This document shows, in pieces, positions 25,371-53,085 of a stretch of DNA of 55,116 nucleotides. The position numbers were made by a program, and so were the translations under genes. Each line of letters begins with the position of its first letter. The first letter of the stretch is position 1. Source of the stretch: a virus; IMG/VR virus record IMGVR_UViG_3300017714_003588, positions 1 to 55,116 of that record, one strand, 5' to 3'. The notes under the pieces are model-generated. The model saw only the letters and a program-made list of their open reading frames with translations, had not been told where the DNA came from and searched no databases.

Positions 25371-25377
25371 AGTATAT

Positions 25378-26488: not shown

Positions 26489-26491
26489 CTT

Positions 26492-26836: not shown

Positions 26837-26984
26837 CTTTATTACCTTTTAAGTTTTCAATTCTATCTTTTAAAAAAGATATAGTAGTATGTATGAAACC
26901 ACAATCATGTGGTTCTATTAATGTTTCGAAATATTTGATTTCTTCTTCTAGTATTTCTATTCTTAATGTTTGTTTATTGTCCAT
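26814..26984 (-). CDS. 56-residue hypothetical protein
   Basis: Encodes MDNKQTLRIEILEEEIKYFE, then PHDCGFIHTTISFLKDRIEN and a C-terminal DGWPFKK. Helical and charged. It overlaps the start of the DUF3310 gene by 23 bases and the Nmad1-like gene by 11. Unrecognised. Confidence 0.5.
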   Translation of the reverse strand: MDNKQTLRIEILEEEIKYFETLIEPHDCGFIHTTISFLKDRIENLKGNKDGWPFKK

Positions 26985-27724: not shown

Positions 27725-28308
27725 TATTTATGTACCACCTTAATTCTTTTTGGTGGCTGTGGTAGATACTTGTAATCACCAATATGAGAATCATTTTTAT
27801 CTTTACTAGTATCAGGATAACCTACACCTAGTAATGAGATAATATCATTATCAGCATTTAATAAAGTTTTTAAATGACCATCTTGATAACATGCACAATA
27901 GCCAGTTTTTAAACCATTTTGATGTGCAATAAGATTTACATATCCACTTGCTATACCTACTGCCATTTGTTGGTCTCTTTTCACTACATAATTATACTGC
28001 TCTTCATCCATATCTGCATAGAACTTAATATTGTCCTGTTCATATGCTTCAAAAGCGATTACCATGTTAGCAAGCACTTGGTCATTAGGTCTTATGATTC
28101 CTTGCTCATCAAAATAACCCATAGTGTTTGCATGTATTTTTTCAAGCAAGTCTCTATTTTGTATGATATGAACTTTATAGTACGGTAAGTTTTGTTTTGA
28201 AGGTGCACCTATGAGAGCTTCATATATTTCCTCATACACATTTAAAGGTATCTTTTTATCTAGATTCCAGTTTCTCTGAGTTGAGTTGCTTTCACTAATG
28301 ACCGACAT
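27724..28308 (-). CDS. nitroreductase-family flavoprotein
   Basis: FMN-dependent NAD(P)H oxidoreductase fold. YEALIGAPSKQNLPYYKVHI near the N-terminus is the phosphate/FMN-binding segment (S-K-Q-N), and AVGIASGYVNLIAHQNGLKT is the characteristic helix; LLGVGYPD follows. 194 residues, single domain. Possible roles: redox balancing or flavin/nitro-compound reduction during infection. It overlaps kdsA by 14 bases and abuts the primase-like gene. Confidence 0.82.
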   Translation of the reverse strand: MSVISESNSTQRNWNLDKKIPLNVYEEIYEALIGAPSKQNLPYYKVHIIQNRDLLEKIHANTMGYFDEQGIIRPNDQVLANMVIAFEAYEQDNIKFYADMDEEQYNYVVKRDQQMAVGIASGYVNLIAHQNGLKTGYCACYQDGHLKTLLNADNDIISLLGVGYPDTSKDKNDSHIGDYKYLPQPPKRIKVVHK

Positions 28309-29077
28309 TTAAAATTTGTTCTAGTATATTATGATATTGTCCTGGTGTTAACATATTAGGTCCGTCTGATGGTGCTCTATCAGGAGCATCATGTACCTCA
28401 TGAAAAAAACCATCAACACCTACTGCTGCAGCAGCTCTGGATAAAGGTGCTACAAATTCTCTTTTACCTAAACTTTTGCCGTTGCCAGCTCCTGGTTGTT
28501 GAACTGAATGTGTTGCATCAAATATAACTTTGAAATTAGGATTATCATCTTTAAATTGTTTCATATATTCTAATCCTCTAAAGTCTACAACTAGATTATT
28601 ATAACCAAATGTTGTACCTCTTTCAGTAATCCATACTTCACCGTCAGGGTCCATTTTAGAAAGTACACCTGGTACTTCTTCATAAGATAAGAATTGTCCT
28701 TTTTTTATATTCACAGGTAATCCTGTCTTACCAGCTTCTACTAATAAATCAGTTTGCCTACATAAAAATGCTGGTATTTGAATTGCATCAACTACTTCAG
28801 CTATGACTTCAACTTGCCAACATTCATGTACATCAGTAATAATTTTCATAAAAGGATTTTGACGTTTCAATTGTTCAAAATCAGCTAGTGTTTGTTCCAA
28901 TCCAACACCTCTTTTACCTTGTATTGAACTACGATTTGCTTTATCAAAAGATGCTTTAAAATAATGTTCATCTTTTCTTTTTAAGCCAACCATATCTATA
29001 GTTGAAGCTATTTCTTTATACATAAAGTCACTGTGTTCCACTGACTCATGTTGACATGGACCCGAGAGTAAAATCAT
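28295..29077 (-). CDS. kdsA: 3-deoxy-D-manno-octulosonate 8-phosphate synthase
   Basis: Condenses phosphoenolpyruvate with arabinose 5-phosphate to Kdo-8-phosphate, the first committed step of lipopolysaccharide Kdo. LLSGPCQHES (N-terminal), FKASFDKANRSS, GLEQTL, ITDVHECWQ, IPAFLCRQTDLL, RGTTFGYNNLVVD and FDATHSVQQPG are all diagnostic. C8 in SGPC indicates the metal-dependent class (Asn in the E. coli type). 260 residues. It may boost host Kdo or feed a sugar pathway for the nearby glycosyltransferases. Confidence 0.93.
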   Translation of the reverse strand: MILLSGPCQHESVEHSDFMYKEIASTIDMVGLKRKDEHYFKASFDKANRSSIQGKRGVGLEQTLADFEQLKRQNPFMKIITDVHECWQVEVIAEVVDAIQIPAFLCRQTDLLVEAGKTGLPVNIKKGQFLSYEEVPGVLSKMDPDGEVWITERGTTFGYNNLVVDFRGLEYMKQFKDDNPNFKVIFDATHSVQQPGAGNGKSLGKREFVAPLSRAAAAVGVDGFFHEVHDAPDRAPSDGPNMLTPGQYHNILEQILNVGH

Positions 29078-32803: not shown

Positions 32804-33415
32804 CTAATTACACATAGCCTTAATTAAAAATATACTTATGACTCTATCTTTAACATCTAATTCACCATAAATTGCTGATGGTCTTACAATTGTATAATCC
32901 AGCCCACTGTCTTTTACTAAGTGTTCACATGCTAGTTTGGCTATTGCGTAAGTACCTTGCGGTTTACAAATGGCAGATTCTTTTTGACCATCATCAAATT
33001 CTCCATATACCATACTACTAGATGCTAATACAATTCTTTTAACATTATGTCTTTTACAGGATTCAATTACATTAATTGTTCCACCTATAATTACTTGAGA
33101 TGCTAGTTGTGGATTTTTATTTACAACTGCTTGTCTTGGATATGAAGCTAAGTGTATCACTATATCAGGTTTTTCTTTTACTAATACAGCATCAAAATCA
33201 TGAGAACATATATCAACATTGTAATCTTTTACATGACCTATTACAGCTTTTCTAGCTCTATAAGTATACTCCATTTCATTTTCAGGTATGACACCATAGT
33301 CATTATAGTTATCAACTACAACTACTTCATGTTTAACATCACTGTCAGACATTAGCTCAGCACAAACCCTATGACCAACTAGACCATATCCACCTGTGAT
33401 AAGTACCTTAGCCAA
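32804..33415 (-). CDS. N-terminal part of NAD-dependent epimerase/dehydratase (amber-truncated)
   Basis: Extended SDR nucleotide-sugar epimerase/dehydratase. ITGGYGLVGHRV binds NAD, ASSSMVYGE carries the catalytic Ser/Thr, TYAIAKLACEHL is the Y-x-x-x-K pair, and VRPSAIYGELD follows. TTG start after ctggaggag. The product stops at a TAG after KAMCN, 203 residues in, although the frame continues as good epimerase sequence. With a UDP-sugar dehydrogenase at 24 kb, the intact enzyme could have made a xylose/arabinose-type or galacturonate-type nucleotide sugar. Confidence 0.8.
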   Translation of the reverse strand: MAKVLITGGYGLVGHRVCAELMSDSDVKHEVVVVDNYNDYGVIPENEMEYTYRARKAVIGHVKDYNVDICSHDFDAVLVKEKPDIVIHLASYPRQAVVNKNPQLASQVIIGGTINVIESCKRHNVKRIVLASSSMVYGEFDDGQKESAICKPQGTYAIAKLACEHLVKDSGLDYTIVRPSAIYGELDVKDRVISIFLIKAMCN

Positions 33416-34607
33416 AGAACTCCTCCAGTGAAGTATTAGATTGGTAATCTAATTTTTGTGCTTTATTATTTTGAAGTAAAAAATTTGTATCAAGCATTCT
33501 ATTATCTAGTCTTCCCTCAAGGAATGCTTTTACACCTCTTGCTGCATGTTCAGCTGTTGTGACAGGTACATTTTGACATATATGATTAAGTGACCTTTTA
33601 GGATTCAACAATTGAAAGTCTTCTGGCATTCTCATCATAGATAAAGCTTCTCTTACATATAAGTATCTATCTTCATCTGGGTGTGTAAGTGAACTTGGCA
33701 TATGACCTACAAAAGCACCAATGTAATCTTTAGGTATCTCAGTAGTTTTTCTCATTATATTACCACCTGACTTTAACTTTTCATACATACGTTCACATTT
33801 TTTTGATTCACCTTCATAACCATTCTTCTTCATCCATTCACCAACTACTTTATAGTTAGTATGTTTTTCAATATGGTCTAAAGGATTAGTAGATTTTTCT
33901 ATTTTATCTTGAAATTCTGAATGTGTAATACCACCTTCAAGTTCTTCTAAACAATACTTATAAAATGGATTGCCAGTTGGTTTTCTTTCATTTGTAAGTA
34001 TAGTACTCATTGGATCAGCAGGACATAACTTAACATTACGTATTGCATCCTCTATTTTTTCATGTGGTTCATGAATCCAATCTATAACAGGTACTTTATC
34101 ACCTTTCCAAAAGAAATAAAATGTTCTATCTCTTACTTGACTTAATCCATGCAATATAGATTTTGTTTGATAGATACTAAATGTATAACCATACTTATCA
34201 GCCATTTTTCTTAATTCAGCTACTACAGGTCTACCCATTTTAGATGCTAACCTCGGTGCATTCTCTCCCCACAAAACATCTGGTTGCATAGTACTTAAAA
34301 CATAATCAGTAGATTTTTTCATCCAATCATTATTATGATTCTCACTACTTGCTTGTGGTGACAATGATGATAAACCAGCACATGGACATACAGTATTTAC
34401 TACATTCACTTTACTAGGTTTAGGATTACCTTCATCTAAAATATGATATGGTACTTCATTATTATAATGGTTAAGCAAATGTTCTTCATTAGCTTGGAAA
34501 CCTGAATAACTCATAATATGTTCAGGTCTTTTACCAAAAACATTTTCCATTGCTATTGTTTCACCGCCTATAAGAGGCACAATACTTGCATAAGTAAAAT
34601 TATCCAA
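33408..34607 (-). CDS. DNA C5-cytosine methyltransferase family enzyme
   Basis: Dcm-family fold. IVPLIGGETIAMENV is motif I (SAM binding), VCPCAGLSS motif IV with the catalytic Cys (P-C), GENAPRL motif VI (E-N-V position), and QVRDRTFYFF motif VIII. NVPVTTAEHAARGVKAFL is motif X. Start placed at TTG 34607, preceded by ggagg and matching the family N-terminus; an ATG 30 bases upstream lacks a ribosome site. In a hydroxymethylcytosine context it could methylate residual cytosine or act in base hypermodification. C-terminus SLEEFFG. Confidence 0.85.
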   Translation of the reverse strand: MDNFTYASIVPLIGGETIAMENVFGKRPEHIMSYSGFQANEEHLLNHYNNEVPYHILDEGNPKPSKVNVVNTVCPCAGLSSLSPQASSENHNNDWMKKSTDYVLSTMQPDVLWGENAPRLASKMGRPVVAELRKMADKYGYTFSIYQTKSILHGLSQVRDRTFYFFWKGDKVPVIDWIHEPHEKIEDAIRNVKLCPADPMSTILTNERKPTGNPFYKYCLEELEGGITHSEFQDKIEKSTNPLDHIEKHTNYKVVGEWMKKNGYEGESKKCERMYEKLKSGGNIMRKTTEIPKDYIGAFVGHMPSSLTHPDEDRYLYVREALSMMRMPEDFQLLNPKRSLNHICQNVPVTTAEHAARGVKAFLEGRLDNRMLDTNFLLQNNKAQKLDYQSNTSLEEFFG

Positions 34608-35607
34608 AGAAACCCTCCAAACTTTGTGACATTGCATCTGATTCTACACCATTCCAATGTGGATAGTATTCTCTGCTTAAATGTATTGACTTAGGTTTTT
34701 CCATACAATCAAAATCTAATTCACCTTTACTATTTAGTAATTTATCAGTCCATCTAATAATACTATATTTGCTATCAATATAATCATTAAATTCATTTCT
34801 TGCATCAGTTCTTTCTTGCCATGTACCCCAGAATGGTTGTCCTTTATAATAACCTGATTGTGGTAATTTTCTAGATTCATTTTCAATAGGCAACAATTCA
34901 TATATCTTTGCATCTAATTGTTTTGCTTGTTCAATATATCTATCAGCTAATTCTTTTACATCAATATCCATTCTACAAATATGATGTCTTATATCAATAT
35001 TGCCAAAGTATAATTCTATTTCATTATAGTTTAAACCTTCATCTGGAATGTAATTAGCTATTCCCTCATTTAATATACCATTGAGTGTTTTAAATGGTAT
35101 ACTTTTTATAGTCCATCCAGGTCTATACATACAAATAGAATGTGAATCACCTATAACTAATTTGTTAGTTTGATTTGGATGTATTATAGTTTCAGCTTCT
35201 TTATGCATTCTTTCTAAATTATCTAAATCTACATTTGCCCATTCTGGTTGTGGGTCTTTTTTAGCTTTAGATAATTTATCTTTAATCCATTCATGGTAAG
35301 GTGGAAAATCAATAGCAATAGATTTTATCTTCCCTTTGAACTTAGAAAAGTTAACAGTGTTTTGTACATAAGGAAACCCATATACACCACCAAACATATT
35401 TAGTCCTCCACTAAAATCATTACCATGATATACCCACATTGTGTCATAATCATTATGTTCTTGTATTTCACCACCGTAGTTTACATCACACTGTCCATAA
35501 GCTTGTTTAATCATGTCACCATACATAACACCTTGAGCACCTCTATGAGATGCTATTCTTTTTGCCACAGGAATAAATGGGCAATTAAGTATATTACCAG
35601 CCTCCAT
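34600..35607 (-). CDS. SGNH-like conserved phage protein
   Basis: About 335 residues. KLVIGDSHSICMYRPGW resembles the 'G-D-S-H' block of SGNH/GDSL-type hydrolases, and ELYFGNIDIRHHICRMD is a second conserved block where the family keeps 'F-G-x-I-D-x-R-x-H'. Similar proteins occur in marine phages without known function. Start ATG 35607 (GTG three bases upstream is equivalent). Ends SLEGFFG, nearly the same as its downstream neighbour. It lies between the hypermodification-like helical protein and the cytosine methyltransferase. Confidence 0.6.
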   Translation of the reverse strand: MEAGNILNCPFIPVAKRIASHRGAQGVMYGDMIKQAYGQCDVNYGGEIQEHNDYDTMWVYHGNDFSGGLNMFGGVYGFPYVQNTVNFSKFKGKIKSIAIDFPPYHEWIKDKLSKAKKDPQPEWANVDLDNLERMHKEAETIIHPNQTNKLVIGDSHSICMYRPGWTIKSIPFKTLNGILNEGIANYIPDEGLNYNEIELYFGNIDIRHHICRMDIDVKELADRYIEQAKQLDAKIYELLPIENESRKLPQSGYYKGQPFWGTWQERTDARNEFNDYIDSKYSIIRWTDKLLNSKGELDFDCMEKPKSIHLSREYYPHWNGVESDAMSQSLEGFFG

Positions 35608-35716
35608 CACCCTTACCTTTATTTTTTTTCTTCCAATGTAATCTACCAGATAGTCCTAAAATACAAAAACTAAAACAGCCAAGAATAATTAATAATACAA
35701 AGAAAAAGTCTATCAT
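35594..35716 (-). CDS. 40-residue membrane microprotein
   Basis: Encodes MIDFFFVLLIILGCFSFCIL then a basic tail LHWKKKNKGKGDGGW. One membrane span, positive-inside tail. Overlaps the preceding gene (four bases) and the following one (14 bases). Confidence 0.55.
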   Translation of the reverse strand: MIDFFFVLLIILGCFSFCILGLSGRLHWKKKNKGKGDGGW

Positions 35717-36774
35717 ACAAAAGCCTCTAATGTTGGTTTATTCATTTCTTTGTTTAAATTTTCTGCTATGGTTTCAAAACTATCAAATGTTAATGGTACA
35801 ATTCTTTTTTGTTGTGCTCTTTCATTATCTTTTATACTAAGAAATACATTAAACTGACAAAAAGTAATTTCTGTACCAAAGGTAGTTAAATTGCCACCAC
35901 GCTCTAAATTGTTTCTATAATAATCATGTTCAGTATCATTTTTAAATTCAAAAAATTCATGTTGATTATCTCTTACAGCTAAAATATATTCTTCCATAAT
36001 ATCATTGTTGCTAAATTTTACATCTGGAAATACAAATTCTAAACCTCTTTTTGCACCTGGCCCTACTAAACAATACTCATCATCTTCATCAATACATGGT
36101 AATTCATCAGCTCTACTAAAATTGCATGGTGGATGATAAGAAAAATATGGACCAATACCTCTATGCTGTTTTAAGTGTTCACAAACAGTACCAAGTGTAG
36201 ATTGTTGGTCTGTCACAGTCCTAGATAAACCAAGTCTATCTAAATGACACATCCAGTCAATCATATCTGATAATTGAAACTTTTTCTCAGGGTTATTGTA
36301 TGTTCTTCTACAATAATTTCTTGCTGCAGTTTGTAATGATGTTTGTAGTTGTGTTGAACCCCACACAGCTAGTTTATGTTTATTTTCATTTAGATTTTTT
36401 TGTATGAAAAGTCTGTATATTGTTTCTTTTTCATATCTATCAAAGTCTATAATATTACTATAATCAGCTGAATTACTAGCAACTAATGTAAGTGTTGGCA
36501 TACCTACAAATTTAACTGCCATTGCATTTAGTATTTTGTTTCTAAGACTAATATCATCTCTACCAAACACATAGTTCTCTAACCAATGTACTTCAGCATG
36601 TTTAGACCTATTAGGATTCCAATACTTTACTTCTTCTCTCATTGCAACATGGCTGGGTGTATAATCATTTAGGTCACCAAAGTCTCTTAGGTATTCTCTT
36701 TTAAAGAACTCTTTGACCCACTCATTAAATATTAGAAAGTTATTTTCGTTTCTTTTTTCTAATAGTTTATTCAT
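35713..36774 (-). CDS. HMUDK-helical/aGPT-Pplase-like protein (DNA base hypermodification candidate)
   Basis: 353 residues. HRGIGPYFSYHPPCNFSR followed by EYCLVGPGAKRGLEFVF resembles the 'G-x-G-P-F-x-x-Y ... V-G-P-G-A-x-x-G' core of the helical, DNA-glycosylase-related family that includes alpha-glutamyl/putrescinyl-thymine pyrophosphorylases and the helical domain of hydroxymethyluracil DNA kinases. Those enzymes act on hydroxymethylated bases in phage DNA. Neighbouring myo-inositol-phosphate synthase, HAD phosphatase and C5-methyltransferase genes fit a modification operon. Assignment is by motif only. Confidence 0.55.
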   Translation of the reverse strand: MNKLLEKRNENNFLIFNEWVKEFFKREYLRDFGDLNDYTPSHVAMREEVKYWNPNRSKHAEVHWLENYVFGRDDISLRNKILNAMAVKFVGMPTLTLVASNSADYSNIIDFDRYEKETIYRLFIQKNLNENKHKLAVWGSTQLQTSLQTAARNYCRRTYNNPEKKFQLSDMIDWMCHLDRLGLSRTVTDQQSTLGTVCEHLKQHRGIGPYFSYHPPCNFSRADELPCIDEDDEYCLVGPGAKRGLEFVFPDVKFSNNDIMEEYILAVRDNQHEFFEFKNDTEHDYYRNNLERGGNLTTFGTEITFCQFNVFLSIKDNERAQQKRIVPLTFDSFETIAENLNKEMNKPTLEAFV

Positions 36775-37147
36775 AAGGATGTATACCGTCTTGTCTTACC
36801 AAGTGTACAATATGTAATTCAGGATGTTCTTTTTTAATTTCTTTGATTTGTATTTCATCATCTTCAAAATGCATACCAATATCATAACCTTGTTTCTTTA
36901 ACATTGTAATCATTTTTGCTTTGAACCTTCCACTAGCTTCACGGCCGTACTCAGGGTCATCTTTTCGCAAGTCATTCATAAATAACATATTATTTATGCC
37001 GCGGGCATGAAGCATTTTTTCAGTAGCTTCTCTTTCACTATGTACAGACCTACCTGTAATAATAATATCATTTGCACACGGCCGTACACCCGTGTACGTA
37101 TCACCAAAGTCTATAACACCATCAATATCAAAAGTATTAATTTTCAT
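36767..37147 (-). CDS. HAD-superfamily phosphatase-like protein
   Basis: 126 residues. FDIDGVIDFGDTY is HAD motif I, IIITGRSVHSEREAT motif II, FKAKMITMLKKQG carries the Lys, and HFEDDEIQIKEIK motif IV. No cap domain. It is overlapped by the inositol-phosphate synthase gene (11 bases), so it may dephosphorylate the product to inositol; alternatively it acts on a nucleotide. Overlaps the next gene by 8 bases. Confidence 0.75.
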   Translation of the reverse strand: MKINTFDIDGVIDFGDTYTGVRPCANDIIITGRSVHSEREATEKMLHARGINNMLFMNDLRKDDPEYGREASGRFKAKMITMLKKQGYDIGMHFEDDEIQIKEIKKEHPELHIVHLVRQDGIHPYE

Positions 37148-38435
37148 AATCAGTCTTTCCAGCTTGAAATGTATGTGGTAAGTCTTTTGCTTTAGGTCTA
37201 TTATCTTTTATTTGAGCTGTAGTCATTTCAGTAAATTTTCTTTCTGCTAAAGCATCACATTCAGCTTTTGCAACATCAGTTTTTAATTGTACTGGTGGAG
37301 ATTTCTGTGTCCATGCACTTGGACCTCTTAGATAACCAACAATACCCATTTCATTAGCAACTCTACAGAACCTAATGGCTGATACTACAACACCACCAGA
37401 GTTTGGACTATCTTGAACTGATAACCTAGCTGACATTTCATACCTTGCACCACCAAATCCATAAGCAACTATATCAAAGTTTGCTATCTTATTATCTGAT
37501 GGAATGTATTCACCACCTGGTTTTTGTTGTACTGTTAAAGATGGACCAGCAAATAGTGTCATACCTGCTGTTGTTTCATCCCTTACAATATTCTGACCTT
37601 TTAAAACATTTTCTTTAGAAATATGTTTAGATTTTAATCTATCTTGTTTAGCCATATTCAAAAAGTCTGTATTTGCTGTACGTCCCGTACGTATAGTTTC
37701 TTGACCTTGTGTAGAACCAGCTGCCATATTCATTTGAATGTGTTGTGTGACCTGTAAACCAGAATCAAGCATTGCACCTTGTAATACTTCTGACATACGA
37801 GATGCTCCCCAAGCTGAACGCATATCACTTCCAACAATTGTTAAACCTGCATCTATAAATCTTTGTTCAGTTGCCATAGCTTCTTCAGTAGATATTAATG
37901 TAGGTATACAATTAACAAAATTAACACCTGCATCTAATGCAACATCAATCCAATATTTTGTAGCATCTTCAGAACCCACTGGTAAATAATTAATAAGAAC
38001 ATCTACATCATGATACTTTATTAACTCTACAGTTCTTTCAAATGATTCTGCTGGTATTGCACCATTTACAAATGTGACTTCATCAGGATAATCATGCATG
38101 TGAGGTGCTATCCCATCTAGTTCTGGTGCTGAATAAACCATTGCTTTAGATTTTACACAACTAGAATTACTATCACCATTTGTATAAATTGAACTAACAT
38201 GATTCATTGAACAATTTGGTGCAGCTCTTAAAGCTTCAGCTAATGGTTTGTTTACTTTTCTTACATCAATATCAAATCCTAAGACAAATTCGATATCTTT
38301 AGTTCCATATCCACCGATATCTTCGTACATAAGACCGACTTTATCTTCTGGATTTTCGTTGTAGTATTGAATGCCTTCAACTAGGCTTTTGGCACAGGAA
38401 CCAATTCCAATGATTCCTACTTTTATTTTTGACAT
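37137..38435 (-). CDS. myo-inositol-1-phosphate synthase
   Basis: NAD-dependent cyclisation of glucose 6-phosphate to inositol phosphate. VGIIGIGSCAKSLVEGIQYY binds NAD; VLGFDIDVRKVNKPL, VGSDMRSAWGASRMSEVLQG (the 'G-D-D-x-K-S-x-x-G-A-T' region) and RLSVQDSPNSGGVVVSAIRF are hallmark MIPS segments. 432 residues, full length for the prokaryotic type. Its product could feed an inositol-based DNA modification, phosphatidylinositol or osmolyte synthesis. The leader contains a hairpin switch candidate. Confidence 0.88.
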   Translation of the reverse strand: MSKIKVGIIGIGSCAKSLVEGIQYYNENPEDKVGLMYEDIGGYGTKDIEFVLGFDIDVRKVNKPLAEALRAAPNCSMNHVSSIYTNGDSNSSCVKSKAMVYSAPELDGIAPHMHDYPDEVTFVNGAIPAESFERTVELIKYHDVDVLINYLPVGSEDATKYWIDVALDAGVNFVNCIPTLISTEEAMATEQRFIDAGLTIVGSDMRSAWGASRMSEVLQGAMLDSGLQVTQHIQMNMAAGSTQGQETIRTGRTANTDFLNMAKQDRLKSKHISKENVLKGQNIVRDETTAGMTLFAGPSLTVQQKPGGEYIPSDNKIANFDIVAYGFGGARYEMSARLSVQDSPNSGGVVVSAIRFCRVANEMGIVGYLRGPSAWTQKSPPVQLKTDVAKAECDALAERKFTEMTTAQIKDNRPKAKDLPHTFQAGKTDYEN

Positions 38436-39508: not shown

Positions 39509-39516
39509 TATAAATA
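39509..39516 (+). promoter_or_regulatory. T4-late-type promoter TATAAATA
   Basis: Exact match to the T4 late -10 element, ending four bases before the ATG at 39521. A T4-like start site (about six bases downstream) would fall at the start codon, giving a leaderless message. Confidence 0.6.
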
Positions 39517-39520
39517 CATT

Positions 39521-40864
39521 ATGATGAAATGGATGCTACTTCCTGTAGCCTTAACAATTTCCGCGATTGCAGCCTACTATTCAATATATGGATTGGCTAC
39601 TATCTTCGCGGCAGCAGTGATACCTATTATAGTAATGGGTGCTGCGTTAGAAGTAGGTAAACTAGTAAGTGTAGTTTATCTGCATCAGTATTGGACTGAA
39701 ACTAAATGGATGTTAAAAACCTATTTGATAATTGCAATAGGTCTATTAATGTTTATTACATCACTTGGTATATTTGGATTCTTATCAAAAGCTCATGTTG
39801 AGCAATCATCCATGTCAATAGAACAAATAGCCTTAGTTGACTCTATTGAAGAAAAAGTAATAAGGTCAGAATCTAAAATTGATAGGTGGGATGAAGAAAT
39901 TAAAAGATTGTTAACACCTAATAGTGAAAGAGTAGATATACAAATAGGAAATGAACAACAACAATTAGATAAGTTATATGATAGAATTGAAAAAGAAAAG
40001 AAAGCTGCCAATGATGCTTACAATCAAAAATTAAAAACAATTAATGAAACAGTCACAGGGTTTGGTTCAGGTGCTGCTAAAAGAGAACAAGTAGATGCTG
40101 CAAATGTTGAACTAAAAAAAGAATTAGCAAATATTGATAAGAAATATAAAGATGAAATAAAAGATTTACAAGACACTATCAAAGCATATAGAGTACAGTC
40201 AGAAACAAAGACAGAAAATATTGATGGAAAGATAGAAGAATTAGAAAGTAAAATAGATGCTGAACAGTTATTACAGGATGAACTAAAAACTGAACAACTT
40301 GTATATGAAAAAGAGTATAGAAAGTTAGAAGCAGAAGTTGGTCCGATTAAATATATTGCGGAACTTATCTATGGAGATGTTGATAGAGGACTTCTTGAAG
40401 ACGCTGTTAGATGGGTAATTATTATTTTAGTTATTGTATTCGATCCTTTAGCGGTAGCGTTATTAATAGCATGGAATGATATTATTAAAAGAGAGCGTCC
40501 AAAAAGACCAACTCCAATACCACCCTCTCCAGAACCAGAGCCAACTCTTAACGAGTTAGCAGAAAAAAAAACTGAAGAAGTAATTCAACCGATAGTTCCC
40601 GATGCTGAAGTTGATAGGGATTATGAGAAAGACCACTATTATAATTTAATAGGAACTAAAAAAGAGGTATCTCAAAAATCGCTTAAAGAGTTTATAGATG
40701 AAACTCCAGACTTTTATGCACAACTGGCTGATGAAATGGGCGGTCCAGTTGAATATGATAGCGATGGTGCTAAGATAGAAGTACCTGATGACGTTTTAGA
40801 ACAAATGCCAGATGGTACATATAGAAAAAAAGTAATCGGTCGTAGCCCAATAAAAACTGGATAA
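39521..40864 (+). CDS. multi-span membrane protein with central coiled coil (DUF4407-like)
   Basis: About 447 residues. Three N-terminal membrane segments (LLPVALTISAIAAYY, IFAAAVIPIIVMGAALEVG, LIIAIGLLMFITSLGIFGF) are followed by a long charged coiled coil (about residues 95-260), one more span (VIIILVIVFDPLAVALLIAW) and a Pro-rich acidic cytoplasmic tail. This plan matches a conserved marine phage family related to DUF4407. Start set at ATG 39521 downstream of TATAAATA. First gene of the plus-strand island carrying the curli-type operon. Confidence 0.7.
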   Translation: MMKWMLLPVALTISAIAAYYSIYGLATIFAAAVIPIIVMGAALEVGKLVSVVYLHQYWTETKWMLKTYLIIAIGLLMFITSLGIFGFLSKAHVEQSSMSIEQIALVDSIEEKVIRSESKIDRWDEEIKRLLTPNSERVDIQIGNEQQQLDKLYDRIEKEKKAANDAYNQKLKTINETVTGFGSGAAKREQVDAANVELKKELANIDKKYKDEIKDLQDTIKAYRVQSETKTENIDGKIEELESKIDAEQLLQDELKTEQLVYEKEYRKLEAEVGPIKYIAELIYGDVDRGLLEDAVRWVIIILVIVFDPLAVALLIAWNDIIKRERPKRPTPIPPSPEPEPTLNELAEKKTEEVIQPIVPDAEVDRDYEKDHYYNLIGTKKEVSQKSLKEFIDETPDFYAQLADEMGGPVEYDSDGAKIEVPDDVLEQMPDGTYRKKVIGRSPIKTG

Positions 40865-40865: not shown

Positions 40866-41147
40866 ATGAAGGCTTTATTAGAACTGTTATTGGAATTGGG
40901 TCCCACAATTGCCGCCGCAATTGCAATGGGTATATTCATATACATTATTATAAAGTACATTCTCAGTTCAGTTGTTGGTCAAGCTAAAACATTACATTCA
41001 ATTATCACACAATTAGATAACCGTGTTGAAACCATGAACAATGATATGATTAAGTTAGATATACAAATTTCTCATGCTTTAAACTTAAAGCCTGATGAAG
41101 AACGTATCTCACGTGCGGACGGGAAGAAAGATGCAAGAAGAGATTAA
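40866..41147 (+). CDS. small membrane protein with coiled-coil tail, copy 1
   Basis: 93 residues: an N-terminal span (LGPTIAAAIAMGIFIYIIIK) then a helix with LDNRVETMNNDMIKLDIQI. The same plan, including 'L-D-x-R-x-x-x-x-x-N-D-x-I-x-L', occurs in the next gene, so they are tandem paralogues. Holin-like size and topology, but also consistent with a partner of the large coiled-coil membrane protein upstream. Confidence 0.6.
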   Translation: MKALLELLLELGPTIAAAIAMGIFIYIIIKYILSSVVGQAKTLHSIITQLDNRVETMNNDMIKLDIQISHALNLKPDEERISRADGKKDARRD

Positions 41148-41410
41148 TGAAACCAGAAATAATCATAGAAATAATTAACAATTATGGAGTACCCACTTTA
41201 GGTTTTATTGCTGCTGGTTATTTCATATATTGGATATACAATTATACAACTAAACAAATCAAACCATCACTAGGTCAGACTCATGTAGTTTTAATTAAAT
41301 TGTTAGATAGAATAAGAATGTTGGACAATGATATTATTAGATTACGTTCTAAATTAGATGCAGTGATTCAACTACAAGAAAAAGAAAAGCAACAGAAAAA
41401 TAATAAATAG
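41147..41410 (+). CDS. small membrane protein with coiled-coil tail, copy 2
   Basis: 87 residues: a span (GVPTLGFIAAGYFIYWIY) and a helix LLDRIRMLDNDIIRLRSKLD, ending in a basic Gln/Lys tail. Paralogous to the preceding gene; one-base overlap (TAATG type). Its last codons contain the late-promoter-like AATAAATA of csgF. Confidence 0.6.
   Translation: MKPEIIIEIINNYGVPTLGFIAAGYFIYWIYNYTTKQIKPSLGQTHVVLIKLLDRIRMLDNDIIRLRSKLDAVIQLQEKEKQQKNNK
41402..41409 (+). promoter_or_regulatory. Late-promoter-like AATAAATA before csgF
   Basis: Sequence taAATAAATAgactATG: the element ends exactly four bases before the csgF ATG, the same spacing as TATAAATA at 39509 and 53078. No ribosome site precedes csgF. 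Confidence 0.5.
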
Positions 41411-41413: not shown

Positions 41414-41923
41414 ATGAAAGCACATCTTATAAACAGTGTGCTGCGAACTTGGGTTGTTATGTTATTTGCGGTGACGTTGGCAGCCCTCTCAACAATTTCC
41501 TCAGCTAGTGAGCTTAACTTTCAGTTTGGCAATCCAGCATTTTCAAAGCAAGGCTACTCGTCCCATGTCTTATCTATTGAGCAACTTAATTACTCACGTA
41601 AAAGAGATGTTGATAAAGACCAAAAGTCAGCCGATGCTTCTGCTCAGAGAGAAATTGATAACACAACAATTAATAAGTTCATTAAGAATGTTGAATCACG
41701 TATTTATGCTAATTTATCTAAACAATTAGTTGATAATATGTTTGGTACAAATTGTATCAACACATCTGAAATAACATGTGAAACTTCTGGTACTGCTTTA
41801 GTAGAAGGAGCCACAATATACTGGGTAAGAGATGATACAACAGAAACTATTAGTTTGACAGTCACAGATGAGACCGGAAATGTCACAACGATCACCGTGC
41901 CCATTGGAGACTTTCTATTCTAA
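41414..41923 (+). CDS. csgF: CsgF-like curli assembly protein
   Basis: Accessory subunit that caps the CsgG pore and couples secretion to fibre nucleation. A signal peptide of about 32 residues (VVMLFAVTLAALSTISSAS) precedes the mature N-terminus ELNFQFGNPAFSKQ, the CsgF signature that inserts into the CsgG channel. The C-terminal part GATIYWVRDDTTETISLTVT, then ETGNVTTITVP, matches the CsgF beta domain. 169 residues, a little longer than E. coli CsgF (138), with two Cys (NCINTSEITCE) likely disulphide-bonded. First gene of the operon csgF-csgG-curlin-fecR-curlin2-cyclase. Confidence 0.88.
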   Translation: MKAHLINSVLRTWVVMLFAVTLAALSTISSASELNFQFGNPAFSKQGYSSHVLSIEQLNYSRKRDVDKDQKSADASAQREIDNTTINKFIKNVESRIYANLSKQLVDNMFGTNCINTSEITCETSGTALVEGATIYWVRDDTTETISLTVTDETGNVTTITVPIGDFLF

Positions 41924-41942
41924 TAGAAAAAAATGAACTTAT

Positions 41943-42764
41943 ATGAAGACACTCTTAGCATTAATATTGACTATAGTTATCACAGGATGCGTCAGCACAC
42001 CTGATAAAATAGACTATTATAAAGACCTGCCACCTCAGCAGCATGCTACACCCACATCAGAATTATTAGTAAACTTACCAGCATTAGATGGTGAAGTTAT
42101 TACTATTGCAGTGTATTCATTTTTAGACGAAACAGGACAAAGAAAACCTAGTGATAAATTTTCACAGCTATCAACAGCAATATCACAAGGTGTGGATGTG
42201 TGGGTAATACAAGCTTTAAAAGAAGCAGGAGATGGTACTTGGTTTAAGGTTGTTGAAAGAATGGGATTGGATAATGTAATAAAAGAAAGACAACTTATAA
42301 GAAGTACAAGAGAAGCATATGATGGAAATGATGCTAACAAGAATTCACTTAAACCTTTAATATTTGCAGGCTTAATATTAGAAGGTGGTGTTGTTGCTTA
42401 TGATACTAATATAGAATCAGGCGGCAACGGTGCAAGATACTTTGGCATTGGAATATCTGAAGAATATCGGGTAGACCAAGTCACTGTCGCTATGAGAGTA
42501 GTTGCTGTTCAGACTGGAGAAGTTTTACTTACCGTTTCAGGTACTAAAACTATAGCTAGTCATCGTTCAGGAACTGATGTTTTTAGATTCTTAGACATGG
42601 GAACTAAGGCTTTAGAAATAGAAAGCGGTGTTGCAATGAATGAGCCAGTAAATTACGCAATACGATCCGCAATAGAGTATTGCGTAATTGAAGTAATCAA
42701 ACAAGGAACAGACCAAGGTCTGTGGAAAATGAAGGAGGATAAAAACGATGAAACAATTCATTAA
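41943..42764 (+). CDS. csgG: CsgG-like curli secretion channel lipoprotein
   Basis: Outer-membrane nonameric pore of type VIII secretion. A lipoprotein signal with lipobox VITGC (C16) is followed by typical CsgG segments: ITIAVYSFLDETGQRKPSD, TAISQGVDVWVIQALKEAG, FKVVERMGLDNVIKERQLIR and VAVQTGEVLLTVSGTKTI. 273 residues matches E. coli CsgG (277). Hydrophobic/transmembrane hairpin regions around GISEEYRVDQVTVAM are present. No CsgE-like gate gene is visible. Expression from a phage could give fibre export or simply a large outer-membrane hole. Confidence 0.92.
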   Translation: MKTLLALILTIVITGCVSTPDKIDYYKDLPPQQHATPTSELLVNLPALDGEVITIAVYSFLDETGQRKPSDKFSQLSTAISQGVDVWVIQALKEAGDGTWFKVVERMGLDNVIKERQLIRSTREAYDGNDANKNSLKPLIFAGLILEGGVVAYDTNIESGGNGARYFGIGISEEYRVDQVTVAMRVVAVQTGEVLLTVSGTKTIASHRSGTDVFRFLDMGTKALEIESGVAMNEPVNYAIRSAIEYCVIEVIKQGTDQGLWKMKEDKNDETIH

Positions 42765-43434
42765 CCTTATATTATTATCTATCTTGTTTACAGGTACATT
42801 ATGGGCGAATGATATTTACGTCACACAAAGTGGTAATACACTTGACTTAGATATTACTCAAGATGGACAAAACAATACTGTTGGTAATTCTACCACATCA
42901 TCATCAGTTGTAGGTGCTACATCTACTATTGATATTGACCAGGTAGGAAACTCTAACGTCCTTACATTTGATGTTAACGGTGCTACATACACTGGAACAT
43001 TTAATGTCACGGGTGGTAGCAACAATATTGACTTTAACTGTGATAGCACTGGGAACAATTCCTCATGTGCAACAGTCACATCTAGCATAACAATGGTGGG
43101 TTCCAGTAACGATTTAGATATCGATATTGGTCAGACTGCTGATGCTGCAAACGGTGGAGTGACTATAACTGGAGCCAGTGGTTCTGATTCAAACGTTATA
43201 GCCGCTACTGTTGATGGTACATCTGCAATCTTAACATTATCTGTAAATGGAGATACAAATAACTGGTTGATTGATATAGATGGAAATGGAGATATTAATG
43301 GCCATACATTAATCCATTCTCATACCGGCGGTACAGCTGATGTAGATATAGTTCAAAGTGGTATTAATGATGCCATTATAAACTTGACTACTATTGGTAA
43401 TGGCCACGATATCGATATAAGTCAAACAGACTAA
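42748..43434 (+). CDS. Curlin-repeat amyloid-like secreted protein 1
   Basis: 228 residues with a 20-residue signal peptide (LILLSILFTGTLWA) and a mature chain of degenerate curlin repeats: YVTQSGNTLDLDITQDGQNN, IDIDQVGNSNVL, LDIDIGQTADA, VDIVQSGINDAI and a final HDIDISQTD. The alternating 'S/D-x-x-x-Q-x-G-x-x-N' pattern is that of CsgA/CsgB strands. No aromatic-rich domain. It overlaps csgG by 17 bases with aaggagg upstream. The substrate of the CsgG/CsgF exporter by context. Confidence 0.82.
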   Translation: MKQFINLILLSILFTGTLWANDIYVTQSGNTLDLDITQDGQNNTVGNSTTSSSVVGATSTIDIDQVGNSNVLTFDVNGATYTGTFNVTGGSNNIDFNCDSTGNNSSCATVTSSITMVGSSNDLDIDIGQTADAANGGVTITGASGSDSNVIAATVDGTSAILTLSVNGDTNNWLIDIDGNGDINGHTLIHSHTGGTADVDIVQSGINDAIINLTTIGNGHDIDISQTD

Positions 43435-44561
43435 TGCGTGCTCTAATAAGAGTTATTGCCTTTTTAATAGGTATTGTGTTTTTACTTTTTTATGGTAAAG
43501 AAGTATATGGACAATCTATAGGAGATGTAATTCTCCAAGAAGGCAATGCTGTTATAGAACAAAGTGGTGAAGAGAATATATCAATCGAAGGATTAAATGT
43601 ATTTTCTTATGATGTCGTTAAGACAGGGAATGGTAAAACAGCTATATCCTTTATTGACGACACTCGCGTAGATGTCACAGAACATTCAAAACTTATAATT
43701 GATGAGTTTGTATATGACCCAGCTAATAACATGGGTTCTCTCTCTATTAAAGCGACATTAGGTACCGTGCGTTATGCATCAGGGCAAATTGCTAAGAACT
43801 ATGCTCAAAATGTAAACATTGAAACACCAACTGCCACCATAGGTGTAAGAGGTACTGATTTTACTATGACTGTAGATGAGATTGGTGGTTCAACAATAAT
43901 CCTATTACCGTCATGCGATACAAAGGGTTATTGTTATGTAGGAGAAATTGAAGTTGAAACAGATGCTGGTTTTGTAATAATGAATCAAGCTTTTCAAGCA
44001 ACTGTAGTCACAACTGGTGAAGCAAAACCAATGAAGCCAGTTATTTTAGATTTAGATGAAAATATGATTGGCAATTTATTGATAATACAGAAACCTCAAG
44101 AAATTGTAGACCAACAAGAAAAAGCTGAATATAATGAAGTTGCAAATGCTTTAGATATAGACTTTTTAGAATTTAATGATTTAGAAGTAGATGAATTAGA
44201 AATAGACAATGATACCTGGACAACAGGTTTAGATATAGATTTTTTAGAACAAAATTTTTTAGTAGATGTATTAGCACAAATTAATAAAGAACTTGCTAAA
44301 GCTATGAGAAGTGAGTTTACAAAACAAGAAGAAGCTTCCATTGATGGTATAAGATTAGGTAAAGACCCTGAAACAGGTATTATAATTTTAGATGAAGACC
44401 CGGACTGGGTATATGCAAGAGAAGGTGCATCAACATATTTTGAATTAAGACTTGATAAAGAGTATGGTTATATTATAAGTTTTACACAAGAAGATTTTGA
44501 AGTATATGACTTTGAATTGGGAGGACAAGGAAATGAGATTCGCATTTATCAAAGTAATTAG
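43434..44561 (+). CDS. FecR-domain secreted protein
   Basis: 375 residues with a signal peptide/anchor (VIAFLIGIVFLLFYGKEVYG). The FecR domain spans about 30-190: VFSYDVVKTGNGKTAISFID, then SLSIKATLGTVRYASGQI and IETPTATIGVRGTDFTM, the classic 'T-P-x-A-x-I-G-V-R-G-T' motif. The C-terminal half is acidic with 'L-D-I-D-F-L' repeats. In bacteria, FecR proteins are often encoded next to CHASE2-cyclase genes, as here. Perhaps an envelope sensor or anchoring protein. One-base overlap with the curlin gene. Confidence 0.85.
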   Translation: MRALIRVIAFLIGIVFLLFYGKEVYGQSIGDVILQEGNAVIEQSGEENISIEGLNVFSYDVVKTGNGKTAISFIDDTRVDVTEHSKLIIDEFVYDPANNMGSLSIKATLGTVRYASGQIAKNYAQNVNIETPTATIGVRGTDFTMTVDEIGGSTIILLPSCDTKGYCYVGEIEVETDAGFVIMNQAFQATVVTTGEAKPMKPVILDLDENMIGNLLIIQKPQEIVDQQEKAEYNEVANALDIDFLEFNDLEVDELEIDNDTWTTGLDIDFLEQNFLVDVLAQINKELAKAMRSEFTKQEEASIDGIRLGKDPETGIIILDEDPDWVYAREGASTYFELRLDKEYGYIISFTQEDFEVYDFELGGQGNEIRIYQSN

Positions 44562-45849
44562 TGTTTTATTTCTTGTTCTTTTAATTAATGAAAAGGCAGA
44601 AGCTGGTTCATTAAACTATGAGGTGTTTGCTATTAGTCATTATGCACCTTATGTAGAAGCACCTTGTTATAATAACTATACATATCTGTCTACCTGTAAT
44701 AATACTAATCCAGCTTATGTAGGTACATCACAAGGAACTGGTACTATTGACAGTTTAAATTATAACTGGAATAGTGGAAACATAGTTCTTCATAATAATA
44801 ATTATGGTGGTAATCAGAGAATGGTAGTTATTACCGGTTATTGGCAACATCCAGGAACCACAGGTCAAACATCTACAGTATATTTTGCTGGTCGTAATGA
44901 TGATGGCCTTATTGTCAACATCAATAATACTAAAGTAATATCTGACTGGGCTCAACAAGGTCCAAGATATTGGAACTCTAATGGTTCATTTTCTGGTGTA
45001 GGTGGACAATGGTACCCAATACAAATTAACTGGTATGAATGGACAGGTTCTGCCAATATGGATATTCATTATAGTTTATCTAATTTAAGTTTAAACTCTA
45101 CAAGTGGTTGGTTAGATATGAATAGTGATCATTTTGCTTTAACTCTATCAGTTCTATCAGGCATTACATCATCACAACAAACAACAGTCACAAATACAAA
45201 GAATACTACAAGCACTACAAATAGTATCTATGTCACACAAAGTGGCAGTGGTATTGATTTAGATATTTTACAAGATGGTGATAATAATGCAGTGATAGGT
45301 ACTAACTTATCAGCCGCTAGTGTAATTACTGGTGATAATATAGATTTAGATATTGCGCAATATGGTAATAACAATATACTTGGTATTGACGTAAATGGTA
45401 ATTCAAATGACATAGATATATGGCAAAATCAAAATCAAAGAGCAATTGTGGATATTGTTGGTACATCTAATACTTTAAGTTTAAAACAAGAACATCTAAA
45501 CAATAATGGTGAACACTTTGCAGACATAGATATAGATGGTAATAATAACGTATTAAGTTTATGGCAAAAAGAAACTGGTGATAAAATACTCTTCATAGAT
45601 ATTGGCAATAGTAATAATGTCACAACATTGCAACAAGGTACAGGAAATCACTTTTTAGACATCAACTTAGGAGATAGTCATACAGTTAATGTAAATCAAG
45701 ATGGCTCAGGTAGTCACAATGCATACTTAAATTTAACTGGTAATAGTTCATCACTTACATTAACACAAGATAGTTCAACAGCACAGAATTATCACTTAGA
45801 CCAGAATTGTACTAACCCAAGTTGTTCAGCAACGGTGACACAGAACTAA
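44533..45849 (+). CDS. PA14-like domain plus curlin repeats (secreted)
   Basis: About 438 residues from ATG 44533 (gggaggacaagga upstream). Signal peptide (VISVLFLVLLINEKAEAG), then an aromatic N-terminal domain with VYFAGRNDDGLIVNINNTKV, the 'R-x-D-D-G' motif of PA14/GLEYA-type sugar-binding domains. From about residue 225 come curlin repeats beginning IYVTQSGSGIDLDILQDGDN, nearly the same as the first repeat of the 42748 protein. It looks like an adhesin tip or CsgB-like nucleator with a binding domain. Overlaps the FecR gene by 29 bases. Confidence 0.78.
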   Translation: MRFAFIKVISVLFLVLLINEKAEAGSLNYEVFAISHYAPYVEAPCYNNYTYLSTCNNTNPAYVGTSQGTGTIDSLNYNWNSGNIVLHNNNYGGNQRMVVITGYWQHPGTTGQTSTVYFAGRNDDGLIVNINNTKVISDWAQQGPRYWNSNGSFSGVGGQWYPIQINWYEWTGSANMDIHYSLSNLSLNSTSGWLDMNSDHFALTLSVLSGITSSQQTTVTNTKNTTSTTNSIYVTQSGSGIDLDILQDGDNNAVIGTNLSAASVITGDNIDLDIAQYGNNNILGIDVNGNSNDIDIWQNQNQRAIVDIVGTSNTLSLKQEHLNNNGEHFADIDIDGNNNVLSLWQKETGDKILFIDIGNSNNVTTLQQGTGNHFLDINLGDSHTVNVNQDGSGSHNAYLNLTGNSSSLTLTQDSSTAQNYHLDQNCTNPSCSATVTQN

Positions 45850-47699
45850 TGATAAAAATATTTACACATTGGACAATAGCATTTCTTACATTGGCAGCAA
45901 TTACGTTTTATGGTTGGCAAGACCCATATTTAAAAGAAGTATTAAGGTTGAAAGGTTTTGATACAATTATAAATTCACAAGAAAAAACTTATTCAAAAGA
46001 TATTGTTATTGTAGAGATAGATGAAAAAGCTATAGAAAAATATGGGCAATATCCTTTCAATAGAGAAATATATTCTGAACTTATAATAAAGTTAAGGCAA
46101 GCAAATGCTGGTATGATATTATTCCCTATGTTATTTTCTGAAAATGATAGACAAGGTGGAGACTTAATATTTTCTGAAGCATTACAATATGGTACAGTAA
46201 TAGCACAAGTTGGTACAAATCAAACTAATAAAAATGCGGTACCTAGAGGAATAGCTAAAATCGGTGACCCTTTACCTTTCTTATTTTCATGGGGCGGAAT
46301 GTTAGGTCCTATACCTGAACTAGAAGCAAATGGTGTTGGTGTTATTAATACAGCACCAGAAATAGATGGATTAGTTAGAAGATTACCTTTACTAATGAGA
46401 GTTGGTGATGATGTATTTCCAGCAATGGCAATTGAAACTATAAGAGCTATTACAGGTGACCCATCTTATCAAGTTAAAGCTGATGCAAATGGTATCATTG
46501 CTGTAAGAGTTCCTGGTTTTGCTACAATAAAAACTGATAGGAATGCTAGAATTTGGATTAATCATAATAAGACATTTGATAGTATCTCAATCGCAGATGA
46601 TGATTTAGAATTTGCATTAACAGAAGGTAAAACAGTAATTGTATCTTTAACTGCAGAAGGTTTGTCACCATTAGTTGCTACATCTGCAGGTGAACAATAT
46701 AATCATTATATTATTGCATCAAGTTTACAAACAATTATTGATGGTACTCATATTAAAAGAGATGATACTAGTTTTTTAATTGAAATGATTTTATGTGTTT
46801 TAATAGCAGCATTATTAATTGCAATTGTAAGAATAGCACCGTACTGGCTAATAGGTTTATTTACAATTGGTGTTTATATTGGTAGTGTTTACTTTGTAGT
46901 GTTTATGTTCAATCAATCACTTACGTTATATGATATTAGTTGGTTTATAATTACATTCACTATTGTTGCAATGCATTCTATATTCAATAGGTTCATATTA
47001 GAATTTAATTTAAAACAACAAATAAGAAAACAATTTGAAAAGTATTTAGACCCAAGGCAAGTAGCTATACTACAGAAAAATCCTGATAAAATAAAATTAG
47101 GTGGTGATAGAAAAGATATGAGTTTCTTATTTATGGACATTGTAGGATTTACACCTATTTCTGAACATTACAAAAATAATGATGACCCGGAAGGATTAGT
47201 CAAAGTAATAAATGATTACTTAGATAGAATGACTAAAATTGTTTTAAAGAATGGTGGTACAATAGACAAATATATGGGTGATTGTATTATGGCATTTTGG
47301 AATGCACCACTTGATTGTGACAATCATGCTGAAATGGCAGTAAAAACAGCTATTGAATGTGCACAAGAAACTGAAGAGATTAAAAAAGAATTTAAAGCAA
47401 AAGGTTTACCAGAAATTAATATAGGTAGTGGAGTAAATTCAGGTACTTGTATTGTTGGTAATATGGGTAGTGAAATGAGATTAGATTATTCTGTAATAGG
47501 TGATGCTGTTAACTTAGCAGCTAGACTAGAAGCACAAACAAGAAATTACAAAGATGACAACGGTAATGTAATACCATTATTATACTCACAATATACTAAA
47601 AGCTTATTAAGTAATATTGACTCTATCGAAGTGGATAAAATAAAAGTAAAAGGTAAAGAAGAGCTTATAACAATTTATAAGCCCTCCCTTATAAGTTAG
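45849..47699 (+). CDS. CHASE2-domain class III adenylate cyclase
   Basis: 616 residues: N-terminal span, periplasmic CHASE2 sensor (about 40-305, DIVIVEIDEKAIEKYGQYPF and GVGVINTAPEIDGLVRRLPL), three membrane segments (about 310-385), then a cyclase domain. Catalytic residues are intact: metal-binding D430 (MDIVGFT) and D478 (YMGDCIMAF), adenine-selecting K474 and D546, and transition-state N555/R559 (GDAVNLAARLE). It should make cAMP in response to an envelope signal. Start overlaps the curlin-2 stop (TAATG). Its stop overlaps the gp32 stop on the opposite strand. Confidence 0.9.
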   Translation: MIKIFTHWTIAFLTLAAITFYGWQDPYLKEVLRLKGFDTIINSQEKTYSKDIVIVEIDEKAIEKYGQYPFNREIYSELIIKLRQANAGMILFPMLFSENDRQGGDLIFSEALQYGTVIAQVGTNQTNKNAVPRGIAKIGDPLPFLFSWGGMLGPIPELEANGVGVINTAPEIDGLVRRLPLLMRVGDDVFPAMAIETIRAITGDPSYQVKADANGIIAVRVPGFATIKTDRNARIWINHNKTFDSISIADDDLEFALTEGKTVIVSLTAEGLSPLVATSAGEQYNHYIIASSLQTIIDGTHIKRDDTSFLIEMILCVLIAALLIAIVRIAPYWLIGLFTIGVYIGSVYFVVFMFNQSLTLYDISWFIITFTIVAMHSIFNRFILEFNLKQQIRKQFEKYLDPRQVAILQKNPDKIKLGGDRKDMSFLFMDIVGFTPISEHYKNNDDPEGLVKVINDYLDRMTKIVLKNGGTIDKYMGDCIMAFWNAPLDCDNHAEMAVKTAIECAQETEEIKKEFKAKGLPEINIGSGVNSGTCIVGNMGSEMRLDYSVIGDAVNLAARLEAQTRNYKDDNGNVIPLLYSQYTKSLLSNIDSIEVDKIKVKGKEELITIYKPSLIS

Positions 47700-48598
47700 T
47701 CTTGAGCTAAAGATTTAAAGTAATCTTCTAAATCTTCATCATCCTCTTTTTTGACTTCCTCAGTTTTTGATTCAAAAACCTCTTGAAAATCATTAGACTC
47801 AGTTGAAGATGTTTCAGCTGTAGGTACCTCTTTGGTAGTTGTACTAACTGCTGCAGAAACTTCAGTTTCACCAAGCACTTCATTTAGTTTTGTTTTAAGT
47901 TCATCATAAGATTTGAACTTGTCTTCAGCAACTAAATCATGAACATCATGTTGTGCTTCGAAAACAGCTTTCATCTTGTCTTCACCCTCAACAATGGCAC
48001 CTGGCTTTTCAAAAGATGAAGAGTCATAGTTCCAATATCCACCAACCATTTTAATTTTAATTCTAAAGTTTGCACCTTCAATTAAATCAAATGGATTTAC
48101 TGGAGTTTCATCTTCAAACTCAGGCTGCATAGACGCCATAATCTTTTCAAAGATTTTTTGTCCAAACTTAAAGATTTTAACTTTACCTTCATGAGAAGTT
48201 TCTTGTGGGTCATTAAGAACAAGAACGTTTGCATAATAAGATGTACGTCTTTTCTGCTTACGAGCTATTTCTTTATTTTCCTCAATACCAGAATTCCATA
48301 ACTTGGAATTATATTCTGACACTGGGTCATTTTGGTTAATGGTTGTCAAAGAATTTTCAATGTACCATTTACCAGTAGGTCCTTGGAAACCATGATCGTA
48401 TATAGTCACCCAAGGTGTTTTTGTGGCATCCTTACCAGGTAAGAATCTGACAACTGCATAACCAGTGCCGTCTTTACCCATACGAGCTTTCCAGATACGA
48501 TCATCGTCGTAACTTTTCTTCTCAGTATTTTTTTGTAGGGATGTTTTAAGTTGCTCAAATTGGCTTGAGCGGTTTTTTAGATAATCATCAAATGACAT
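47696..48598 (-). CDS. 32: gp32-like single-stranded DNA-binding protein
   Basis: T4 gp32 family: coats ssDNA in replication and recombination. The N-terminal basic stretch (residues 1-40) gives cooperativity; the core has RTSYYANVLVLNDPQ and GKVKIFKFGQKIFEKI. The C-terminal 60 residues are acidic (EEVKKEDDEDLEDYFKSLAQ), the gp59/UvsX-interaction tail. 300 residues matches T4 (301). The four-Cys/His zinc site of T4 gp32 is not evident. Strong ribosome site acggagg. Confidence 0.93.
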   Translation of the reverse strand: MSFDDYLKNRSSQFEQLKTSLQKNTEKKSYDDDRIWKARMGKDGTGYAVVRFLPGKDATKTPWVTIYDHGFQGPTGKWYIENSLTTINQNDPVSEYNSKLWNSGIEENKEIARKQKRRTSYYANVLVLNDPQETSHEGKVKIFKFGQKIFEKIMASMQPEFEDETPVNPFDLIEGANFRIKIKMVGGYWNYDSSSFEKPGAIVEGEDKMKAVFEAQHDVHDLVAEDKFKSYDELKTKLNEVLGETEVSAAVSTTTKEVPTAETSSTESNDFQEVFESKTEEVKKEDDEDLEDYFKSLAQD

Positions 48599-53077: not shown

Positions 53078-53085
53078 TATAAATA
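53078..53085 (+). promoter_or_regulatory. T4-late-type promoter TATAAATA
   Basis: Exact TATAAATA ending four bases before the ATG at 53090; no ribosome site. Same geometry as at 39509 and 41402. Confidence 0.65.

Follow-up and report, generated by a model that had tools for sequence, protein, structure and literature searches.

Some of the commonest cells in the ocean are infected by phages that keep about 7 kb of genes for an export system absent from the hosts themselves. Here, we examine one such curli-type (type VIII) secretion module in the 55,116 nt of IMG/VR virus record IMGVR_UViG_3300017714_003588 (hereafter the window, i.e., the whole stretch of DNA analysed), where positions 41414-47699 encode, in order, CsgF, CsgG, a curlin, a FecR protein, a protein joining a PA14 head to curlin repeats, and a CHASE2 adenylate cyclase, all intact. 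We consider, with moderate confidence, that the most likely role of the module is to make, late in infection, a lectin-tipped curlin amyloid that binds debris or neighbouring cells from the surface of infected ones. The 55-kb window is part of the genome of a T4-like phage (UvsX, DnaB-type helicase, gp32, DNA end protector, tail tube) akin to Pelagibacter phage HTVC008M. The curli module itself is not new, since the whole of it, including FecR and the cyclase, was described in 2022 in podophages and myophages among the pelagiphages (PMC9599517); the first-pass annotation, made from the letters of the window, had rightly pointed to curli-type genes in SAR11 myophages. What is added here concerns the PA14 head and its swapping, the late promoter, two small genes (smA and smB) without a kinase domain, the pairing of FecR with CHASE2 in bacteria, the scarcity of cyclic AMP (cAMP) readers, and purifying selection.

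The export channel is well supported. The Pfam match of CsgF spans the whole profile (E = 9.6e-12), and its N-terminal stretch aligns, weakly (E = 0.17), with the CsgG-binding segment of E. coli CsgF (6l7a). The CsgG profile matches E. coli CsgG (3x2r) over its length with E = 5e-67, and its lumen loop is like the alphaproteobacterial type. The first reading of the DNA had called the CsgG lipobox intact and CsgE missing, and both calls hold: Cys16 is invariant in 19/19 diverse homologues, and no CsgE was found in the window or in six related phage records, while the E. coli control was detected. CsgC, CsgD and CsgE are stated to be absent from alphaproteobacterial curli modules (PMC9599517), and we therefore do not count CsgE as defining for this branch.

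Two putative export substrates accompany the channel. The curlin-repeat Pfam match is 3.6e-6 in the second curlin protein (curlin 2) and 0.026 in the first (curlin 1). Despite its weak Pfam score, curlin 1 is curlin-type on profile and motif grounds, because its profile matches that of curlin 2 (99.4% probability, E = 1.5e-21), the curlin 2 family profile in turn matches the solved curlin-repeat protein 8c50 (E = 5.5e-9), and QxGxxN motifs are commoner in curlin 1 than in composition shuffles (p = 0.003). For the head of curlin 2, the PA14 Pfam match (0.0018) is below the cut-off alone and is supported by the fold. The AlphaFold model (19 sequences; mean predicted local distance difference test score (pLDDT) 69, around 80 in the curlin part) has a beta-rich head followed by a regular strand stack, and Foldseek returned the Flo1, Flo5 and Epa adhesins and the sugar-binding PA14 domain of MpAFP, with E from 8e-7 to 1e-5. 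The head is thus predicted to be of the PA14 lectin type, with the fold of sugar-binding adhesins and an Asp-Asp calcium/sugar site, and the repeats are predicted to form a solenoid; together they give candidates for the exported amyloid or adhesin that had been suggested at first. Neither PA14 nor lectin appears in the main text of PMC9599517.

The head varies among phages. Across 35 complete curlin 2 homologues, some of them redundant, 13 carry a head with the DDG motif, 11 have a head of different or unassigned type (one with a weak ThuA match, 5e-4), and 11 are headless, while the C-terminal Cys pair is present in 35/35. One homologue (L020) has a window-like head fused to a tail of the other group, and of two close relatives (L022 and L023) one has the head and the other lacks it. 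Exposed binding parts typically change in such a modular way, and a swapped or missing head is as expected of an exposed adhesin.

The module is maintained across 80 related viral loci. All 80 have unbroken csgF and csgG frames; on contigs of sufficient length, curlin 1, FecR, curlin 2 and the cyclase are nearly always present, and the gene order, whose conservation had been proposed as a check, is largely kept. The departures noted are one locus in which curlin 2 was not found (L067) and one with the cyclase on the other side in opposite orientation (L020). The ratio of nonsynonymous to synonymous substitution rates (dN/dS) is 0.09-0.18 for all genes of comparable architecture; curlin 2 set against headless homologues gives 0.40 and 0.53, values left out of this range because the architectures differ. 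The module genes are under purifying selection. These frames and ratios give no evidence of a decaying operon. Neither of the refuting outcomes named at the outset occurred: CsgF and CsgG both match their profiles, and their frames are unbroken in the relatives.

All six gene identities proposed in the first-pass annotation were confirmed by Pfam, fold and profile comparison, with the CsgF, CsgG, FecR, CHASE2 and Guanylate_cyc profiles that it named all matching. Its description of six overlapping genes stands for four junctions, but csgF and csgG are separated by a 19-bp gap. Similarly, the six genes do lie at the positions it gave, but the cluster begins further left, with two small genes at 40866-41410 and probably with the open reading frame at 39521, which is probably the first gene of the transcript and whose membership of the module is uncertain. 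The likely start codons of the PA14 protein and of the cyclase are ATG 44533 and ATG 45849. The features are as follows.

39509..39516, + strand: T4-type late promoter motif TATAAATA, 12 nt upstream of ATG 39521
39521..40864, + strand: 447-aa membrane protein combining N-terminal helices with a long coiled coil; weak Tetraspanin-like Pfam match alone
40866..41147, + strand: smA, 93-aa one-helix membrane protein (phrog_18771)
41147..41410, + strand: smB, 87 aa, paralogue of smA (phrog_18771)
41414..41923, + strand: CsgF, with N-terminal CsgG-binding stretch (FQFGNPAF), middle helix region and C-terminal strands (Pfam 9.6e-12)
41943..42764, + strand: CsgG outer-membrane lipoprotein channel with Cys16 lipobox (Pfam 5.2e-54)
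42748..43434, + strand: curlin-type fibre subunit 1, with signal sequence and QxGxxN repeats (profile match to curlin 2 family)
43434..44561, + strand: exported FecR-domain protein, C-terminal tail ending NxIxIxQ (Pfam 2e-8)
44533..45849, + strand: curlin subunit 2, with predicted PA14 lectin-type head, curlin solenoid and C-terminal Cys pair (Pfam, fold)
45849..47699, + strand: CHASE2 receptor-type class III adenylate cyclase (Pfam CHASE2 9.7e-35, Guanylate_cyc 2.9e-18)
47696..48598, - strand: gp32-like ssDNA-binding protein, convergent, the right border of the module (Pfam 4.4e-41)

The late expression suggested earlier is supported by the promoter motif at 39509, read by T4 biology. TATAAATA is rarer than expected in the 55-kb window (4 perfect copies vs 12.4 expected by chance), and two of the four copies lie 12 nt before a gene-opening ATG, namely that at 39509 (ATG 39521) and another at 53078 (ATG 53090), the latter opening the gene for the DNA end protector, a late gene. 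Six related loci, that of HTVC008M among them, have the motif 13 nt upstream of the csgF ATG. A perfect motif is at neither place in 14 of the 23 loci examined. The motif supports late transcription of the module in the manner of T4 late genes.

In the smA/smB family (phrog_18771), the paralogues are 85-115 aa long and combine a single N-terminal helix with an amphipathic segment. The family belongs with the module: 48 of the 51 smA loci with room downstream also have csgG, and the other three have the cyclase. Judged by their place before csgF, smA and smB are probably the genes called 'histidine kinase' (HK) in PMC9599517. No member of the family has a Pfam match to kinase families, and HATPase_c was found in none of seven phage records while 14/14 controls were detected. 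These 'histidine kinases' thus appear to be two one-helix membrane proteins of ~90 aa without a kinase domain. Considered as holins, they gave no significant Pfam match, YvrJ (0.21) being one of several weak ones.

The FecR protein has a signal sequence and a FecR domain only, without the cytosolic N-terminal anti-sigma part, and there was no Pfam match to FecI or FecA among ten module-region proteins scanned. Given the signal sequence and the missing anti-sigma part, the reading of the phage FecR as an iron regulator appears weak. Bacterial FecR matches end at profile position ~210, and the C-terminal tail of the phage protein (window 44319-44558) is not seen there; its end, NxIxIxQ, is kept in 56/58 phage proteins. 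This end looks like a curlin half-repeat, but taking the tail as a curlin repeat was rejected, with profile comparison against both curlin families giving 0.9-2.5% probability (unrelated controls 0.2-0.3%). The structure model of FecR is poor (pLDDT 48).

In the cyclase, the window alignment shows all catalytic residues, in agreement with the earlier call of intact key motifs (FMDIVGFT, DKYMGD and VIGDAVNLAARLE, with the metal Asp pair, Lys, Asp, Asn and Arg present). The catalytic Asn is replaced by Ser in 7/34 cyclase homologues, that of the OM43 phage Melnitz among them. We noticed that the cyclases of four loci (L003, L020, L032 and L077) are of this Ser-for-Asn type and carry a C-terminal extension, the CHASE2 part being kept and the output part swapped.

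FecR and CHASE2 also occur together in bacteria. Similar FecR domains are present in at least 95 of 289 alphaproteobacterial genomes among the matches listed, and of 40 such genomes, picked for their listed FecR matches, 16 have FecR no more than 5 kb away from a CHASE2 gene (0.7 expected, approximately). From gene neighbourhoods, then, the pairing is one that pre-existed in alphaproteobacteria. In S. meliloti, the FecR gene smc02177 has as neighbours cyaD1 (smc02176) and clr (smc02175), which encodes a Crp-type regulator. In a SAR11-order genome (locus L225, genome G006), FecR and a CHASE2 protein are ~3 kb apart, the latter giving no cyclase domain match, possibly a native SAR11 pair with another output. 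In about 70 bacterial loci, csgG had none of FecR, the cyclase and the two small membrane proteins nearby, so that FecR and the cyclase are not ordinary parts of a bacterial curli operon. Since neither gene is near bacterial csgG, the phage module can be described as a curli set joined to a FecR/CHASE2 sensor set, and either a phage or some bacterium not sampled may have been where the two were joined.

On the host side, we surveyed 197 genomes from the order of a Candidatus Pelagibacter metagenome-assembled genome (MAG), the completeness of the genomes not being reported. A class III cyclase was present in 1/197 and a full-length CsgG in 1/197. The two share one contig, on which there are phage-like genes as well, and curli borne by SAR11 itself was accordingly rejected. 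cNMP-binding (cyclic nucleotide-binding) domains were found in 14/197 genomes, 13 of them seemingly one 870-aa family and one a Crp-sized protein. A cAMP receptor borne by phages was sought and not found in 10 phage records. Because the sampled SAR11-order genomes are mostly without cAMP-binding domains and class III cyclases, the cAMP-to-CsgD control proposed in the literature would lack a receiver in most possible hosts and is thus unlikely, which we take as a strong hint, not proof. Phage-type curli modules also occur on contigs binned into Rhodobacteraceae, Pelagibacter and Pirellulales MAGs (L084, L085, L086, L087, L088 and L100), which are probably phage contigs wrongly binned.

Taken together, these observations suggest the following course. 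Late in infection, a CsgG/CsgF channel would be built in the outer membrane of a host without curli of its own, and two curlin-type proteins, a plain subunit and a subunit with a sugar-binding PA14 head, would be exported through it. On the infected cell or its remains they would assemble into a sticky, lectin-bearing amyloid that may keep neighbouring cells or debris near the burst, to the benefit of the phage. The exported FecR and the CHASE2 cyclase would form a sensor pair acquired from alphaproteobacteria, probably reporting the state of the envelope or fibre as cAMP. 'Sibling capture' was proposed when CsgF and CsgG were reported (PMC7029224), and the pelagiphage module, in the same gene order, is spread over 65 ocean stations and expressed in ocean metatranscriptomes (PMC9599517). 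Several points weigh against a lectin-bearing fibre, whose secretion, amyloid assembly and adhesive role are inferred. Cultures infected with Melnitz, which has the module, showed no clumping (PMC9004378); the lack of CsgE departs from the E. coli system; and the repeats of curlin 1 are degenerate. Some phages have a headless curlin 2, so lectin adhesion is not universal; and for the sensor part, the S. meliloti FecR gene near cyaD1 is dispensable for signal perception (PMC5498481).

Other roles have been suggested for the same genes. CsgG/CsgF could be a gated outer-membrane pore that aids or times lysis, with the curlin proteins secondary, as proposed for Melnitz (PMC9004378). The two small one-helix membrane proteins would suit such an envelope role, and the late promoter is as compatible with a pore as with a fibre; however, two curlin-type export substrates, one of them lectin-headed, are under purifying selection beside the pore, CsgF keeps the curli-specific CsgG-binding stretch, and the holin-family matches of the small proteins are non-significant, so we regard this as unlikely. 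We give a similarly low weight to a fibre whose benefit is not cell capture but a superinfection block through cell coating and receptor masking (suggested in PMC9599517). A late product located at the surface and head swapping between phages, which also suits competition at the cell surface, would fit it, but late expression comes late for exclusion and lectin heads suggest binding of other glycans. Uptake of nutrients or cofactors (siderophores, vitamins) through the pore, with FecR as a mark of iron control, has been suggested twice (PMC7029224, PMC9599517) and seems to us highly improbable: the phage FecR has a signal sequence, no anti-sigma part and no FecI/FecA among the module genes, it is of the kind found near CHASE2, and the curlin substrates would be purposeless. 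A bolder form of the lectin-tipped amyloid, to which we attach a small though somewhat greater chance than to the lysis pore or the superinfection block, is that the host is turned into a trap before death, interchangeable lectin heads selecting the cells held and the FecR/CHASE2 pair making a cAMP that needs no Crp-type receptor and might, for instance, leave the cell as a signal or act through another target.

A lectin-tipped fibre, if true, would give viruses a means to alter contact between cells in a dilute habitat, an idea that the swappable head opens to direct testing. Irrespective of this, our results call into question two published assignments (the histidine kinase and the iron-regulator FecR) and the cAMP-CsgD route.

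Elsewhere in the window, an alternative oxidase (AOX) gene lies in this T4-like phage at 49388-49951 (- strand; Pfam 1.3e-64), presumably resembling the plastid terminal oxidase (PTOX) genes of cyanophages. At 33408-38435 (- strand), C5-cytosine-methylase-like, 5-hydroxymethyldeoxyuridine (5-hmdU) DNA kinase-like and myo-inositol-1-phosphate-synthase-like proteins are clustered in what looks like a DNA hypermodification cluster, the inositol-synthase relative being odd there. UDP-glucose dehydrogenase and 3-deoxy-D-arabino-heptulosonate-7-phosphate (DAHP) synthase genes at 21817-29077 (- strand), with unassigned genes close by, are possible surface-sugar and aromatic pathway genes.

Among the closest known systems, the pelagiphage module (PMC9599517; HTVC008M, Melnitz) has the same order of small genes, CsgF, CsgG, curlin 1, FecR, curlin 2 and cyclase. 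The window nevertheless belongs to a separate, uncultured phage, megablast over 36-55 kb returning only a 1-kb stretch at 73% identity in HTVC008M, and it has a PA14 head and a canonical cyclase, whereas in Melnitz such a head is missing and the cyclase is without the catalytic Asn. With the curli systems of E. coli and alphaproteobacteria the module shares CsgG, CsgF and curlin repeats; unlike them, it has no CsgE, bears a head on one curlin, and adds FecR, a cyclase and two small proteins. The CyaD1-SMc02177-Clr system of S. meliloti (PMC5498481) is alike in having a receptor-type cyclase with a FecR-domain gene nearby, but has the Crp-type receptor Clr next door, no such receptor being seen in the phages and in nearly all SAR11-order genomes surveyed. 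Finally, the predicted head fold and the DDG motif are those of PA14 lectin adhesins (yeast flocculins, Epa, MpAFP); in these adhesins the head stands on flocculin or RTX stalks, whereas in the phage it would be displayed on curlin repeats.

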